Positions 1,065-25,261 of a stretch of 64,000 bases of DNA are shown piece by piece. The position numbers were made by a program, and so were the translations under genes. The stretch comes from Thermovirga lienii DSM 17291 (lineage in GTDB: Bacteria > Synergistota > Synergistia > Synergistales > Thermovirgaceae), in contig CP003096.1 of NCBI GenBank assembly GCA_000233775.1, positions 1,903,775 to 1,967,774 of the forward strand, given 5' to 3'. A model generated the notes under the pieces. The model ran no database searches, was not told the origin of the DNA, and saw only the letters and a list, made by a program, of their open reading frames with translations. Every line of letters begins with the position of its first letter. Position 1 is the stretch's first letter.

Positions 1065-1550
1065 CTACTCCTCGTTCAAGGCTTCCTTTATCTTTTCCTT
1101 CATTATCTTCATCTTCTTGCTTATTGCCTGTTGGGTCATCCCAAGGATCTCCCCTATCTGCTGTTGTGTCTTTCCTGCAAGAAAGTGTCTTAATATCTCC
1201 ACATCTTTCTTTAGGATATTCTCAAGGAACATTCGAAAATCCACGATTTCAAAGTCACTTATTGCTCTTGGGTCCGATATATTTTCGAACTCTTCCTTGA
1301 AGTCGTATTTCGATTCCTCCCTATATTTCCAAAGCTTTCTGGCCTTGGATCTCATCATTCCGGGCAGGCGCTTTTTGACATAATCCATAAGCTCCCCTGT
1401 CTTCTTAATCTTTTCCTGCGTTCTGCCCTTCAAAAGCTCCAATAAAGCCAAATGCCCTTCCTGAACAAGGTCCTCGAAGTCCTCACGCGAATTGGCATAC
1501 CTCCTTGCCGTCGCAATGATCAACTTACTGAAGTCCTTATTCATCTTCAT
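1065..1550 (-). CDS. Small sigma-70-like factor / HTH protein
   Basis: A 161-residue protein. Residues about 27-42 (EDLVQEGHLALLELLKG) resemble sigma region 2, the core-binding part. Residues about 127-155 (KTQQQIGEILGMTQQAISKKM) form a region-4-like helix-turn-helix. The linker is short and region 3 is absent, as in ECF-like or SigH-like factors. The start is the ATG at 1550, with AAGGAGG about 14 nt upstream. No anti-sigma gene is adjacent. The IS256-family element ends 22 bp upstream, so the native promoter has probably been separated from the gene. It could also be a phage-type sigma-like activator; which promoters it reads cannot be told from sequence. Confidence 0.65.
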   Translation of the reverse strand: MKMNKDFSKLIIATARRYANSREDFEDLVQEGHLALLELLKGRTQEKIKKTGELMDYVKKRLPGMMRSKARKLWKYREESKYDFKEEFENISDPRAISDFEIVDFRMFLENILKKDVEILRHFLAGKTQQQIGEILGMTQQAISKKMKIMKEKIKEALNEE

Positions 1551-2969: not shown

Positions 2970-3239
2970 CTCATATACTTTTAGCTCCTCATTTCTCATT
3001 TATTTATAAAAATTGTCGACAGACAACTTTCTGGTTATTTTGTTGATTCTATAATACAAAAAAGTCTTTTGCAAGCTCAGCTCTAGCTGTTGTAACCGGA
3101 CAATGATATTGTCACCCTGTAAGGGGACAGAAAAAATGTCACCATGAGGAAGAGTAACTTTTTGAGCGAGCACTAAATAGAGAGGCTTAAGAGCGAGAGT
3201 GAGGTAAAGAGGTATAGCAGCGCTGGCGCATGGGAACAG

Positions 3240-17490: not shown

Positions 17491-19014
17491 CTAGGCCACC
17501 CCCTTTGTTCTTTGGCCTTCCAGTATCTTGATTAGGGCCTTGGCCTTGTTCTTGGTCTCCTCGTACTCCCTCTCAGGCAATGAATCGTAGACTATGCCTG
17601 CACCAGCCTGAACGTGCAGCCTTTCTCCCTCCTGAAGAAACGTCCTTATGGCAATGCACATGTCCATGTCTTGGCCAAATCCTATATATCCCACTGCTCC
17701 GGCATAGGGCCCCCTGGCTTCAGGCTCCAGCTCCTCTATGATCTCCATGGCCTTGATCTTGGGAGCTCCGGATACGGTCCCAGCGGGGAAAGCGCTCTTC
17801 AGGATCTCGAGGGGAAAGCAGTCCTCTCGCTTGATGCCTTCCACGTTGGAGACGATGTGCATTACCTTGGAGTACTTCTCTATCCCCATAAGCTCCGTTA
17901 CCTTGACCGTCCCAGGCACACAGACCCTTCCCAAGTCGTTCCTGGCAAGATCCACCAGCATCAGATGTTCTGCCCTCTCCTTCTCATCGGACAGAAGGTC
18001 ATCTTCCAAGTGCCTGTCCTCAGTGGGACACCTTCCTCTCCTCCTGGTTCCAGCCAAGGGCCTTGTGGTGGCTTTGCTGCCCTCAACTCGGACCAAGACC
18101 TCCGGCGAAGAGCCAATTAGCCTAAAGTCCTTTAAATCCAGCAGAAACATGTAAGGGGAGGGGTTGGCCGACTTCAATGCCTGATAAAGAGTCAAAGGGT
18201 TAACCTTCGCCTGGGCGGTGAACCTTTGGGATAGGACCACCTGACATATATCTCCAGAACGTATTCTCTCCTTTGCCTCCTCCACCATGGAAAGGAAGCA
18301 AGATTCGGTCATGTTAGAACGAAACGTTGCCGCTATCTCCGTAGGGTCATCAAACTCCATGGGAAACTTTGGCTCCGAGATCTTTCTTTCGAGTTCCTCC
18401 AGCGAAAGTAGTCCTTCATCGTAGAGGGTCTTTTTTTCTGCTGAAGTCGCTCCTTCTGGGATCCTAACCGTCTCTATCAAGAAGATCCTTTCATATAGGT
18501 GGTCTATGGCCACCACGGAACGAAAAGCTATCATCATAGCTTCCGGGAATGGGCTTTCCTTCAGTTTCCTTTCGGGATCCTGATGGAAAAGTTTCTCCCA
18601 GTGCTGAACCATTTCATAACCCAAATAGCCCGCAAGACCTCCTGGGAAGGGGGGTAGGCCCTCGAAAAGCTCGTTTTTATGGCTTGATATATACTCCTCA
18701 ATAGCTTTGTCGAACAGCTCCGGCCCGCCACTTCGCAACAGATTACCTTTAGGCCCCTTCTCCCTGAACGTGCCTTTAGCCAAGGCGAAAACCCGTTCTG
18801 GCCTTGATGCCACGAAGGAGAACCTTCCCTCGTGGGGCCTTGAAATTCCGCTCTCGAAAAGGAGGGAAAAGTTCCCTTTTCCAGCGACCCGGCGGTATAT
18901 ATCAAAAGGACTGTTTCTTCCGAGGGGCATTTCCCTCACCAGGGGCACTGCATTGAAACAATGGCTATACTTTTCAAATTCCACAAAACTGACCTCTTTT
19001 CTCAAACTCTTCAT
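17491..19014 (-). CDS. trpE: Anthranilate synthase component I
   Basis: About 507 residues from the ATG at 19014, chosen for GGAGGT 9 nt upstream; an upstream in-frame ATG at 19074 lies inside the attenuator hairpin. It has the chorismate-binding core (GDICQVVLSQRF, TRPLAGTRRRG, FPAGTVSGAPK, GAGIVYDS). Near the N-terminus it has LLFESGIS, the equivalent of the LLES element used for tryptophan feedback inhibition. With TrpG it makes anthranilate from chorismate. It is controlled by the attenuator immediately upstream. Confidence 0.95.
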   Translation of the reverse strand: MKSLRKEVSFVEFEKYSHCFNAVPLVREMPLGRNSPFDIYRRVAGKGNFSLLFESGISRPHEGRFSFVASRPERVFALAKGTFREKGPKGNLLRSGGPELFDKAIEEYISSHKNELFEGLPPFPGGLAGYLGYEMVQHWEKLFHQDPERKLKESPFPEAMMIAFRSVVAIDHLYERIFLIETVRIPEGATSAEKKTLYDEGLLSLEELERKISEPKFPMEFDDPTEIAATFRSNMTESCFLSMVEEAKERIRSGDICQVVLSQRFTAQAKVNPLTLYQALKSANPSPYMFLLDLKDFRLIGSSPEVLVRVEGSKATTRPLAGTRRRGRCPTEDRHLEDDLLSDEKERAEHLMLVDLARNDLGRVCVPGTVKVTELMGIEKYSKVMHIVSNVEGIKREDCFPLEILKSAFPAGTVSGAPKIKAMEIIEELEPEARGPYAGAVGYIGFGQDMDMCIAIRTFLQEGERLHVQAGAGIVYDSLPEREYEETKNKAKALIKILEGQRTKGVA

Positions 19015-19048
19015 ACCTCGTCTACCTCCTTTTTCTCCCCTTGACTTC

Positions 19049-19089
19049 AAAATAAGAGGGGAGAGGCTCTTCAAGGCCTCTCCCCTCTT
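19049..19089 (-). terminator. trp attenuator terminator hairpin
   Basis: A perfect 14-bp stem (19076-19089 with 19054-19067) and 8-nt loop, followed on the minus strand by ATTTTG. It lies between the leader peptide and trpE. The loop and ascending arm (19067-19078) can instead pair perfectly over 12 bp with 19122-19133, which would dissolve the terminator. Confidence 0.85.
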
Positions 19090-19120
19090 TGATTACAGCT
19101 AAAACTCAAGCAAAACAAAA

Positions 19121-19219
19121 GGGCCTTGAAGAGAATCCCAAAAGGGATCCGCCTCCAAGGCCCTAAGCTCTATTTATTTACATCGCTTCAGGCTCTTGGG
19201 GGCAGACCGCGAAAGTCTG
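19121..19219 (-). promoter_or_regulatory. trp leader antiterminator and competing segments
   Basis: Segments on the minus-strand RNA: a, GGCAGAC (19213-19219) just after the Trp codons; b, GTCTGCCCCCAAG (about 19193-19205); c, CTTGGAGGC and overlapping GGGCCTTG (19152-19163); d, CTCTTCAAGGCCC (19121-19133); e, GGCCTTGAAGAG in the terminator. Possible pairs are a:b, b:c (one mismatch), c:d (8 bp) and d:e (12 bp). Stalling at the Trp codons would free b to hold c, leaving d free to pair e and prevent termination. Confidence 0.7.
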
Positions 19220-19258
19220 CCACCACCAATTGCGTAACGATGCTTTTTTAATGCTCAA
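19178..19258 (-). CDS. trpL: trp operon leader peptide with three consecutive Trp codons
   Basis: A 26-residue frame starting at TTG 19258, with AGGAGG 8 nt upstream, and ending at TAA 19178. Codons 11-13 are TGG TGG TGG. Three adjacent Trp codons in a short frame, upstream of an intrinsic terminator and trpE, are the hallmark of ribosome-mediated attenuation. The start is 25 nt after the stop of the chemoreceptor gene, and the promoter is inside that gene. The peptide itself probably has no function beyond sensing charged tRNA-Trp. Confidence 0.85.
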   Translation of the reverse strand: MSIKKASLRNWWWQTFAVCPQEPEAM

Positions 19259-19283
19259 CTATCTTTCCTCCTGCAAAATGATT

Positions 19284-21455
19284 TTACGAGATGTTAGCAC
19301 CTTCCTTTTCCTCCGTCAAGTGTTCTTCCTCTTCAAGTTCCTCCTGCACCTTCGCTTTTTCCTCTACTTTAAACCTGTTGAGCATAACTTCGAGTTTATC
19401 GGCATTCGCCATAAGGGTTTGTGCTTCTTCAGCCACTTGCATAGCTTTCTCGTTAGTGGAAACAGAGGAGGATTCTATTCCTTCCACTTTCTCGACCAGC
19501 TGGTTGTTAGCCAAAGTTATCTGTTCAACGGCTTCAGCGATTTCGTGACTTGCAGCCGCCTGCTCTTGGGCAAAGGCCGCCATGGAATGTATTGTTTCAT
19601 CGATGGAGTGGATATGCTCCAAAACGGACTCTATGTTGTTCTGGGCCTCTGCTGCTTGTTGCGCCGTGATCTTAAGCTCTTCCGCTGAGGTCATTACGGC
19701 ATCTGCAGAATTTCTGCTCTCCACACGAAGGACTTCCACCAAAGTGCTTATTTCCTTGGCGGCTTTGTTGGAGTTCTCTGCGAGTTTCCTGACTTCATCC
19801 GCAACCACTGCAAAGCTCCTGCCGTGTTCTCCAGCTCTCGCTGCCTCTATGGCAGCGTTAAGGGCCAACAAGTTGGTCTGATCGGCAATAGTACCTATGG
19901 TGCTTACAAAGGATGTTATCTTCTCAACGGAATCCACCAATTTCTCTATGGCCTTGGCGTTGAGTTCCGCATCCTCCGAAGTCTTGTACACAGCCTGTAT
20001 TACGCTCTTAACCTGTCCTGTAGCCTCCTCTCCGATCTTGCGGGTCTTATCCGAGAGGGCCGCTGCTTCTGCTGCAGACTCTGCAACATTCTTGGAACCG
20101 CTGGAGACCTCTTCTATGCTAGCGTTGGTCTCTTCCAGGGAAGCCGCATTGTTTTCCGCAAGTTCCGCTAGGTCCTTTACCGCCCCCTGTATAACTTCCA
20201 TGGCTTCATTCACTGAATCGGACAACCTTGCGAGCTCATCTGCTCCGTGTTTGTTGTTTGCCACCTCATCTTTTATGGCTTCTATGATCTGCTTTTGGTT
20301 GGTGATCATTTTTTCCATTTCCACAGCTACTTCGTATATCTCATCGCGGAAGGGGAAAGAGTACCAGCTTAAAGACACCGTGAGATCTCCGGAACCAGCC
20401 TTTTGAGCCATGTCCGAAAGGTTGCGGAGAGGTTTCTTTATGCTTCTGGTGATCAAGAAAGAGACCACCAAACCTAATAATATTACGACCAAGGTAACCA
20501 CTAAGCTCAATTTGAGGCTTTGAGAAAGGCGCACCATTATATTTGAAGCAACTTCATTGACTTTCTTCAGAGTCTCCTTGTTCACATCATCAACTAACTT
20601 GTTGGTCTTCTCCGCTCTATCCTCCAAATCTTGGGCTATGCTCTGAAGGGCCTCCCAATTTGCCACCAAGTCTTCTACCGCCTTTTTGTATGAGCCTATG
20701 GCCTCAATCACCTTTTCCAAGTTCTTTTTGCTGGAAAGAACGTAGGTGTCTTTCTTGATGGCCCCCACTTCGCCTTGGACCTTAGTCAACCTTGAGAGCA
20801 AAGCCTTTACCTCGCTGTCGCTTCGAGCCAGCTGAGCTTTATATATGTCAATTCCCACGCTTTCCATTTCCCTCAACAAATCCATGGCCTTATTGATTTT
20901 TCCCATGCGCTTCATTACCGCTGCAACGCCAAGTTCAAATTCTATCTCGTTTTTTAGTTCCTCTCTCTCTCCTGCTAAGTATGCCCTCATGTTTTCCCTA
21001 ACCGTAGATAAAGCCTTTTCTGTTTCTGCGCGGCTATCCTTTATACTCTCCATGGCTCTTCCTATCTTTCTGGCCGCGTTCTTGAGAGAACTTATAGCAC
21101 TTGTAGCCACATTGGCTCCTTGTTCTAGCTCCTCAATGTCGCTCCTTGCGGTGGCCATCCGCATCGCCTGTTGAACAAGGGCTTCTGCTTCTTTTAATTT
21201 TTCGTCACCTTTAAGAAGGTAGCCTTTTTCGCCCACTAGAGCATATTTGGAGTAGTAAGACGATCCCTCCAAAAGTTTTTGCCTGATATCGGAAGTAAGA
21301 TTTATCTCAGCAAACCTTTGCTTCACCAAGTCTTCCGTGGAGTATTGAATCTCCTGGAAATTTTTCCAGGAAAAGAACGTGGCAATAGCAAATACAACCA
21401 CTACTGCCAAAATGCTTCCTGCAAGCCTTGGACCTATTTTGGTGTTTTTAAACAA
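19284..21455 (-). CDS. Methyl-accepting chemotaxis protein
   Basis: About 723 residues, taking the TTG at 21455 after GGGGGGAAG (a start at 21485 is also open). An N-terminal membrane helix is followed by a helical sensor region of about 290 residues, a second membrane helix ([18 protein letters not shown]), HAMP, and the cytoplasmic signalling domain. The hairpin tip [34 protein letters not shown] is conserved for CheA/CheW contact. There is no C-terminal CheR-binding pentapeptide. It is transcribed in the same direction as trp, and its last codons contain the trp promoter. A binding-protein gene lies just upstream. No other chemotaxis genes are in the window. Confidence 0.92.
19291..19319 (-). 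promoter_or_regulatory. trp operon promoter embedded in the 3' end of the chemoreceptor gene
   Basis: On the minus strand TTGACG (19314-19319), 17-nt spacer, TAACAT (19291-19296). It overlaps the last codons of the MCP gene, and transcription would begin near 19284, about 25 nt before the trpL start. No other promoter room exists between the two genes. Confidence 0.6.
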
Positions 21456-21490
21456 ACTCTTCCCCCCCTTTAAGGCGCACCGCAACTAAC

Positions 21491-25142: not shown

Positions 25143-25160
25143 TTTAAACGCTGACTGAAG

Positions 25161-25238
25161 GCCATGGGGGCGCCCCTAAGAGGGGCTGAGAAGGTACCCC
25201 TTGAACCTGATCCAGGTAATACTGGCGGAGGGAATGGC
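25161..25238 (+). promoter_or_regulatory. TPP riboswitch (THI element)
   Basis: It contains the highly conserved GGGGCTGAGAAGG, CCTTGAACCTGATC and GGTAATACTGGCGGAGGGAA segments in order. P1 can form between GCCAT (25161-25165) and ATGGC (25234-25238). It lies upstream of thiC, the usual location, and is followed by an intrinsic terminator, so control is probably by transcription termination when thiamine pyrophosphate is bound. Confidence 0.96.
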
Positions 25239-25261
25239 AAGAAAAGGGAAACAACTCCTCT

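Follow-up and report, generated by a model that had tools for sequence, protein, structure and literature searches.

The window analysed here, a stretch of 64,000 nucleotides from Thermovirga lienii DSM 17291, carries a trp operon on its minus strand with the gene order E, G, D, C, F, B, A, as read from open reading frames (trpE and trpG assigned by Pfam, the rest from their proteins). Between the upstream gene for a methyl-accepting chemotaxis protein (MCP; 21485-19284) and trpE (19014-17491) lies a trp leader of ~270 nt on the same strand, which includes the following elements.

19284-21485, minus strand: upstream MCP gene, from the open reading frame and NCBIfam matches
19291-19319, minus strand: candidate promoter TTGACG-17-TAACAT with an extended -10 (TGC), within the final MCP codons, from a consensus scan
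19267-19272, minus strand: trpL ribosome-binding site AGGAGG, from the sequence
19178-19258, minus strand: trpL leader peptide frame, TTG start, 26 codons (LSIKKASLRNWWWQTFAVCPQEPEAM), TAA stop
19220-19228, minus strand: regulatory codons TGG TGG TGG, from the sequence
19024-19030, minus strand: trpE ribosome-binding site AGGAGGT
17491-19014, minus strand: trpE, the first structural gene, with Pfam domains Chorismate_bind and Anth_synt_I_N

As an RNA of 270 nt, the leader folds at -104.5 kcal/mol versus -80.4 +/- 4.8 kcal/mol for shuffled sequences (z -5.0). Its candidate promoter is a weak match when taken alone, the consensus scan having found one site versus 0.7 expected in shuffles. The TTGACGG and the extended -10 (TGnTA..AT) are also kept in a Thermovirga MAG, and there too an MCP gene lies upstream. 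This MAG is the nearest named relative (TrpE 70% identical), which puts the genome in Synergistota. The initial annotation of this DNA had reported trpL, its AGGAGG and three TGG codons, a 14-bp terminator, a 12-bp alternative pairing and the promoter, all of which are indeed found in the sequence. It had also placed the promoter over the end of the MCP coding sequence and stressed that chemoreceptor and trp leader share this DNA. The position is right, but we saw no regulatory link. We therefore set aside a connection between chemotaxis and the trp leader, as the two overlap only in that the promoter sits within the 3' end of the MCP gene, an ordinary position for a promoter.

Several features of the leader are those of the ribosome-mediated attenuator class: a run of Trp codons in a leader frame with its own ribosome-binding site ahead of trpE, mutually exclusive antiterminator and terminator pairings whose first arm overlaps the regulatory codons, and, ahead of the first gene, a GC-rich hairpin with a U tract directly behind it, an arrangement that occurs twice, as T1 and T2. 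The initial annotation had proposed a relay of five segments ending in one terminator; it was correct that the relay exceeds that of E. coli trp in length, but there are six segments and two terminator-like hairpins, T1 occupying 19163-19121. The segments and their pairings in the window are as follows.

19215-19221, minus strand: segment 1 (GGCAGAC), which pairs with 19201-19207
19191-19208, minus strand: segment 2 (GGTCTGCCCCCAAGAGCC), partner of segment 1 or segment 3
19145-19163, minus strand: segment 3, the 5' arm of T1 (GGGCCTTGGAGGCGGATCC), partner of segment 2 or segment 4
19121-19163, minus strand: hairpin 3:4, the terminator-like T1 (GGGCCTTGGAGGCGGATCCC / GGGATTCTCTTCAAGGCCC), about -33 kcal/mol
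19111-19120, minus strand: T1 tail TTTTGTTTTG, directly 3' of the T1 hairpin
19122-19133, minus strand: segment 4 core CTCTTCAAGGCC, partner of segment 3 or of 19067-19078
19067-19078, minus strand: segment 5 core GGCCTTGAAGAG, the top and loop of T2
19054-19089, minus strand: hairpin 5:6, terminator T2 (AAGAGGGGAGAGGC/GCCTCTCCCCTCTT), 14 bp, with a U-rich tail at 19049-19055

These elements form a chain in which 1:2, 3:4 (T1) and 5:6 (T2) stand against 2:3 and 4:5. The 2:3 pairing joins 19208-19191 with 19162-19146 over about 16 bp and takes up the 3' arm of hairpin 1:2 in full and most of the 5' arm of T1; an alternative pairing of 19152-19163 with the leader coding region had been recognized from the outset, although its extent was understated. 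The 4:5 pairing is an exact 12-bp complement (CTCTTCAAGGCC at 19133-19122 with GGCCTTGAAGAG at 19078-19067) that overlaps the T2 stem by only about 3 bp, the remainder being T2 loop. T1 is a strong, GC-rich hairpin with a UUUUGUUUUG tail immediately after it. A simple terminator scan listed no site, T1 included, probably owing to the scan's loop and stem limits.

The pairings were assessed among 54 leaders in 21 clusters by setting the pairing of each segment with its own partner against its pairing with partners taken from other clusters. All five chain-adjacent pairings of a his-type relay were found: 2:3, 3:4 and 5:6 are own-partner specific (z -7.6, -10.4 and -12.3, respectively), as is 4:5 (z -4.6, with -4.6 to -5.8 over the own-partner tests), and the 1:2 helix is well paired (98% in alignment A2). 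Conversely, 2:4, 2:5, 2:6, 3:5 and 4:6 showed no own-partner specificity in the same leaders and clusters, and 3:6 was marginal (z -2.1), as expected if segment 3 resembles segment 5. The permutation values are to be read as measures of specificity rather than exact probabilities, because the clusters are not fully independent. The specificity of 4:5 stands when leaders are clustered at 80 or 75% and when Watson-Crick pairs alone are counted; it weakens at 65%, where 7 clusters give p of about 0.01-0.03, and a 60% cut-off leaves 3 clusters. When counted in fixed columns of a MAFFT alignment, support for 4:5 is only moderate because its register shifts between lineages. Comparing the longest 4:5 run with dinucleotide shuffles proved insensitive, because arms rich in G and arms rich in U pair easily and segment 5 had been truncated for the window; the own-versus-foreign tests were used instead. 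For 2:3, the covariation score exceeds those of 500/500 shuffles and of slid controls, and 3:4 is conserved with column covariation. Two leaders, L012 and L013, have A in place of C in segment 3, and segments 2 and 4 have each changed to match, as a strand shared by two pairings requires. Thus both the TGG run and the alternative stems are conserved among relatives, and the suggestion that leader-peptide attenuation of trp genes is used in Synergistota is supported by WWW codons kept phylum-wide and by the covariation of the alternative stems.

Based upon these features, we consider it very likely that the leader controls the trp operon by ribosome-mediated transcription attenuation through a relay of six segments; it is real and conserved, and it probably has two terminators that are switched together. 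The sequences themselves show that the elements are present and conserved and that 2:3, 3:4, 4:5 and 5:6 are own-partner specific, whereas termination at T1, the timing of the successive steps and a response to tryptophan are inferred from comparison. With ample Trp-tRNA, the ribosome would pass the WWW codons, leaving segment 2 either masked or back on segment 1; T1 would then form and hold segment 4 off segment 5, so that T2 could form as well, and transcription would end at T1 or, if polymerase leaks past T1, at T2. With Trp-tRNA in short supply, the ribosome would stall on the Trp codons and cover segment 1, whereupon segment 2 would take segment 3 through the pairing of about 16 bp. The freed segment 4 would take the top of the 5' half of T2 together with its loop (12 bp) before segment 6 is made, neither terminator would form in time, and trpE would be transcribed. 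Given the footprint of a ribosome, a stall at the Trp codons would leave the RNA free from about 19209.

Folding, which had been put forward as a check of the relay, supports it in part. With RNA ending at 19067 and segment 2 free, the minimum-energy fold holds both 2:3 and 4:5, and roughly half of the representatives shift likewise at equilibrium when segment 2 is free, but T1 and T2 are favoured at equilibrium by the complete leader of every representative, even with segment 2 free. Since equilibrium favours T1 and T2 once segment 6 exists, the switch must be kinetic and depend upon the order of synthesis, a reliance that is usual for attenuators. The position of the leader stop codon also bears upon the fate of segment 2. 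In most relatives it falls within the 1:2 loop, such that a ribosome on the stop would cover segment 2; in Thermovirga the leader frame extends through segment 2, and hairpin 1:2 would form again once the ribosome has moved on.

Whether T1 itself terminates is the point at which the closest rival reading departs. The same six-segment relay could operate with T2 as the sole terminator, 3:4 acting as a protector hairpin, which would either release segment 4 or keep it bound, in the manner of stem CD of the his leader, in which such an arrangement exists (PMC10989985). By a lenient count, U-rich tails follow T2 in 52/54 leaders and T1 in 39/54; the T2 U tract is thus the stronger and nearly universal one, and the T1 tails are poor in several relatives (L004, L007, L008, L012, L013 and L020). 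Even so, T1 in the window is strong, GC-rich and directly followed by UUUUGUUUUG, and most relatives have a U-rich T1 tail, which leaves a sole T2 terminator as a possibility to be taken seriously, albeit on the doubtful side. It is unlikely that the leader is an ordinary four-segment attenuator (1:2, 2:3, 3:4) in which regulation acts at T1, with T2 as a backup terminator apart from it and 4:5 as an incidental product of GGCC words shared by neighbouring hairpins. Many arms do have the self-complementary word AGGCCU in common, and the fixed-column support for 4:5 noted above would agree with such a view. However, 4:5 is specific for its own partner across 21 clusters whereas non-adjacent pairs are not, long 4:5 pairings are kept despite quite different words in L001, L016, L017 and L145, and a backup terminator that never opens would block the operon.

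A reading of the RNA by a protein, a tRNA or a metabolite (TRAP-like, T-box or riboswitch), with the short frame being secondary, seems very improbable. The T1 sequence GGCC..GGAGGC(G/A)G..CC is conserved to an unusual degree, much like a binding site, yet this conservation can be attributed to the two partners, segments 2 and 4, that a single stretch must match. Moreover, the leader start, its ribosome-binding site and the Trp codons are kept across diverse species, and neither the T-box nor any other Rfam family matches: the T-box model had no match in the window or the leader region, the Trp_leader model (RF00513) had none by gathering score or at E up to 10 and none in eight related loci, and a search of the window, the region at relaxed E-value and the eight related loci yielded no family, the relaxed matches having the appearance of chance. 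Elsewhere in the window, a TPP riboswitch (Rfam RF00059, 82.9 bits) lies at 25156-25250 on the plus strand.

When examining the distribution of the leader, a WWW leader was found upstream of trpE in 33/46 Synergistota genomes with a trpE match. Among the remainder, one has WW, two have contig ends in the way and ten have neither; the ten leaderless genomes carry a distant trpE of about 33-41% identity. The ten trpE genes with no WW leader frame upstream, all of them distant in sequence, are those at L146, L147, L149-L154, L156 and L157. A covariance model of the part from WWW to T1, termed R1 and built from 18 trpE leaders, matches 55/185 Synergistota genomes, a count that includes the weakest matches as well as opposite-strand matches, which arise because the hairpins are near-palindromic, and both should be discounted. 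The genes that follow R1 RNAs were named by reading their proteins, with a Pfam check for L160, L165, L171 and L176. Besides trpE, they include trpD-led operons (L159, L163, L164, L166, L167, L170 and L172), trpC- or trpB-led genes (L160, L168, L173, L174, L179 and L180), SSF symporters (L169, L171 and L175), an SNF-type transporter (L176) and an NhaC-like transporter (L165). In one genome (G017), two copies of the RNA occur, one before trpE (L003) and the other before trpC-trpB (L160), so that a split pathway would share one control. Before two of the SSF symporters (L171 and L175), the T2-like hairpin has no U tract behind it and is located near the ribosome-binding site, and so may act on translation. 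No genuine R1 match was found in 44 genomes reached via other trpE loci; their single weak match (L181) was rejected as a plain terminator after a permease gene.

The scaffold also occurs with other codons. At two loci, TAT TAT TGG replaces TGG TGG TGG, as one would expect were the codons the sensor.

L161 (genome G007), 2996-3115, minus strand: Tyr-Tyr-Trp scaffold before a gene for a 393-aa membrane protein
L162, 968-1087, plus strand: Tyr-Tyr-Trp scaffold before a gene for a 393-aa membrane protein

The leader peptides in G007 and G002, both of the window's family, read GFFYYWQT and GCFYYWQT, and a genome search gave no trpE match in either. The 393-aa membrane protein has no Pfam or NCBIfam match, and at L161 an M20 amidohydrolase lies downstream of it. 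A 59% identical relative of the same membrane protein is preceded at L185 (about 1225-1390, plus strand) by a different short frame, MRDFFDLSAV..., in which two Phe codons occur, and by a terminator-like hairpin, with an R1 score of only 17.5 bits.

Among known systems, the E. coli trp attenuator has adjacent Trp codons in its leader peptide and the alternatives 1:2, 2:3 and 3:4. The Synergistota leader resembles it in these respects and, in most relatives, in having the stop within the 1:2 loop, but differs by its additional pairings 4:5 and 5:6 and a second, terminator-like hairpin. The enterobacterial his leader, with stems AB, CD and EF opposed to BC and DE and uridines after EF (PMC10989985), provides the parallel for the whole chain. 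In the his attenuator of E. coli and other enterobacteria there are likewise six segments, a stalled ribosome covers the first of them so that BC and DE replace AB, CD and EF, and uridines follow the last hairpin. Unlike it, the present leader carries Trp codons ahead of trp genes in a different phylum, shares no sequence family with it by Rfam and, in the window and most relatives, has a terminator-like U tract after the middle hairpin, T1. The trp attenuators of actinobacteria (Corynebacterium and Streptomyces) comprise terminator and antiterminator hairpins and are similar in their double or triple UGG, their GC-rich terminator with a U tract and their conserved GGCC-type words common to antiterminator and terminator, but they are described with one terminator and one antiterminator (PMC1262725). 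Two tandem terminators together with a possible antiterminator occur within one leader in the rimP leader of some Gammaproteobacteria, which is not described as an amino-acid leader-peptide relay and is unrelated in gene and sequence (PMC2965389). The main text of Stav et al. 2019, whose screen included Thermovirga lienii intergenic regions, mentions neither trp nor tryptophan (PMC6429828). Neither full-text search nor Rfam yielded a report of a trp attenuator in Synergistota, a result that comes from an incomplete body of literature and is no proof that there is none.

In a broader reading, to which we would give even chances, one stalled ribosome controls two serial intrinsic terminators via a single strand-exchange chain, thus constituting a low-leak switch, and the module serves as a phylum-wide sensor with exchangeable codons (WWW to YYW) that puts other genes under another amino acid. 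Apart from this reading, the finding shows that an elaborate relay of the his type has a counterpart on a trp leader outside the enterobacteria, in a phylum far removed from them, where the relay probably includes a second terminator. The codon-swapped members provide a natural test of the scaffold as an amino-acid-independent module, and the R1 RNAs extend a probable tryptophan regulon to transporters whose substrate is unknown.
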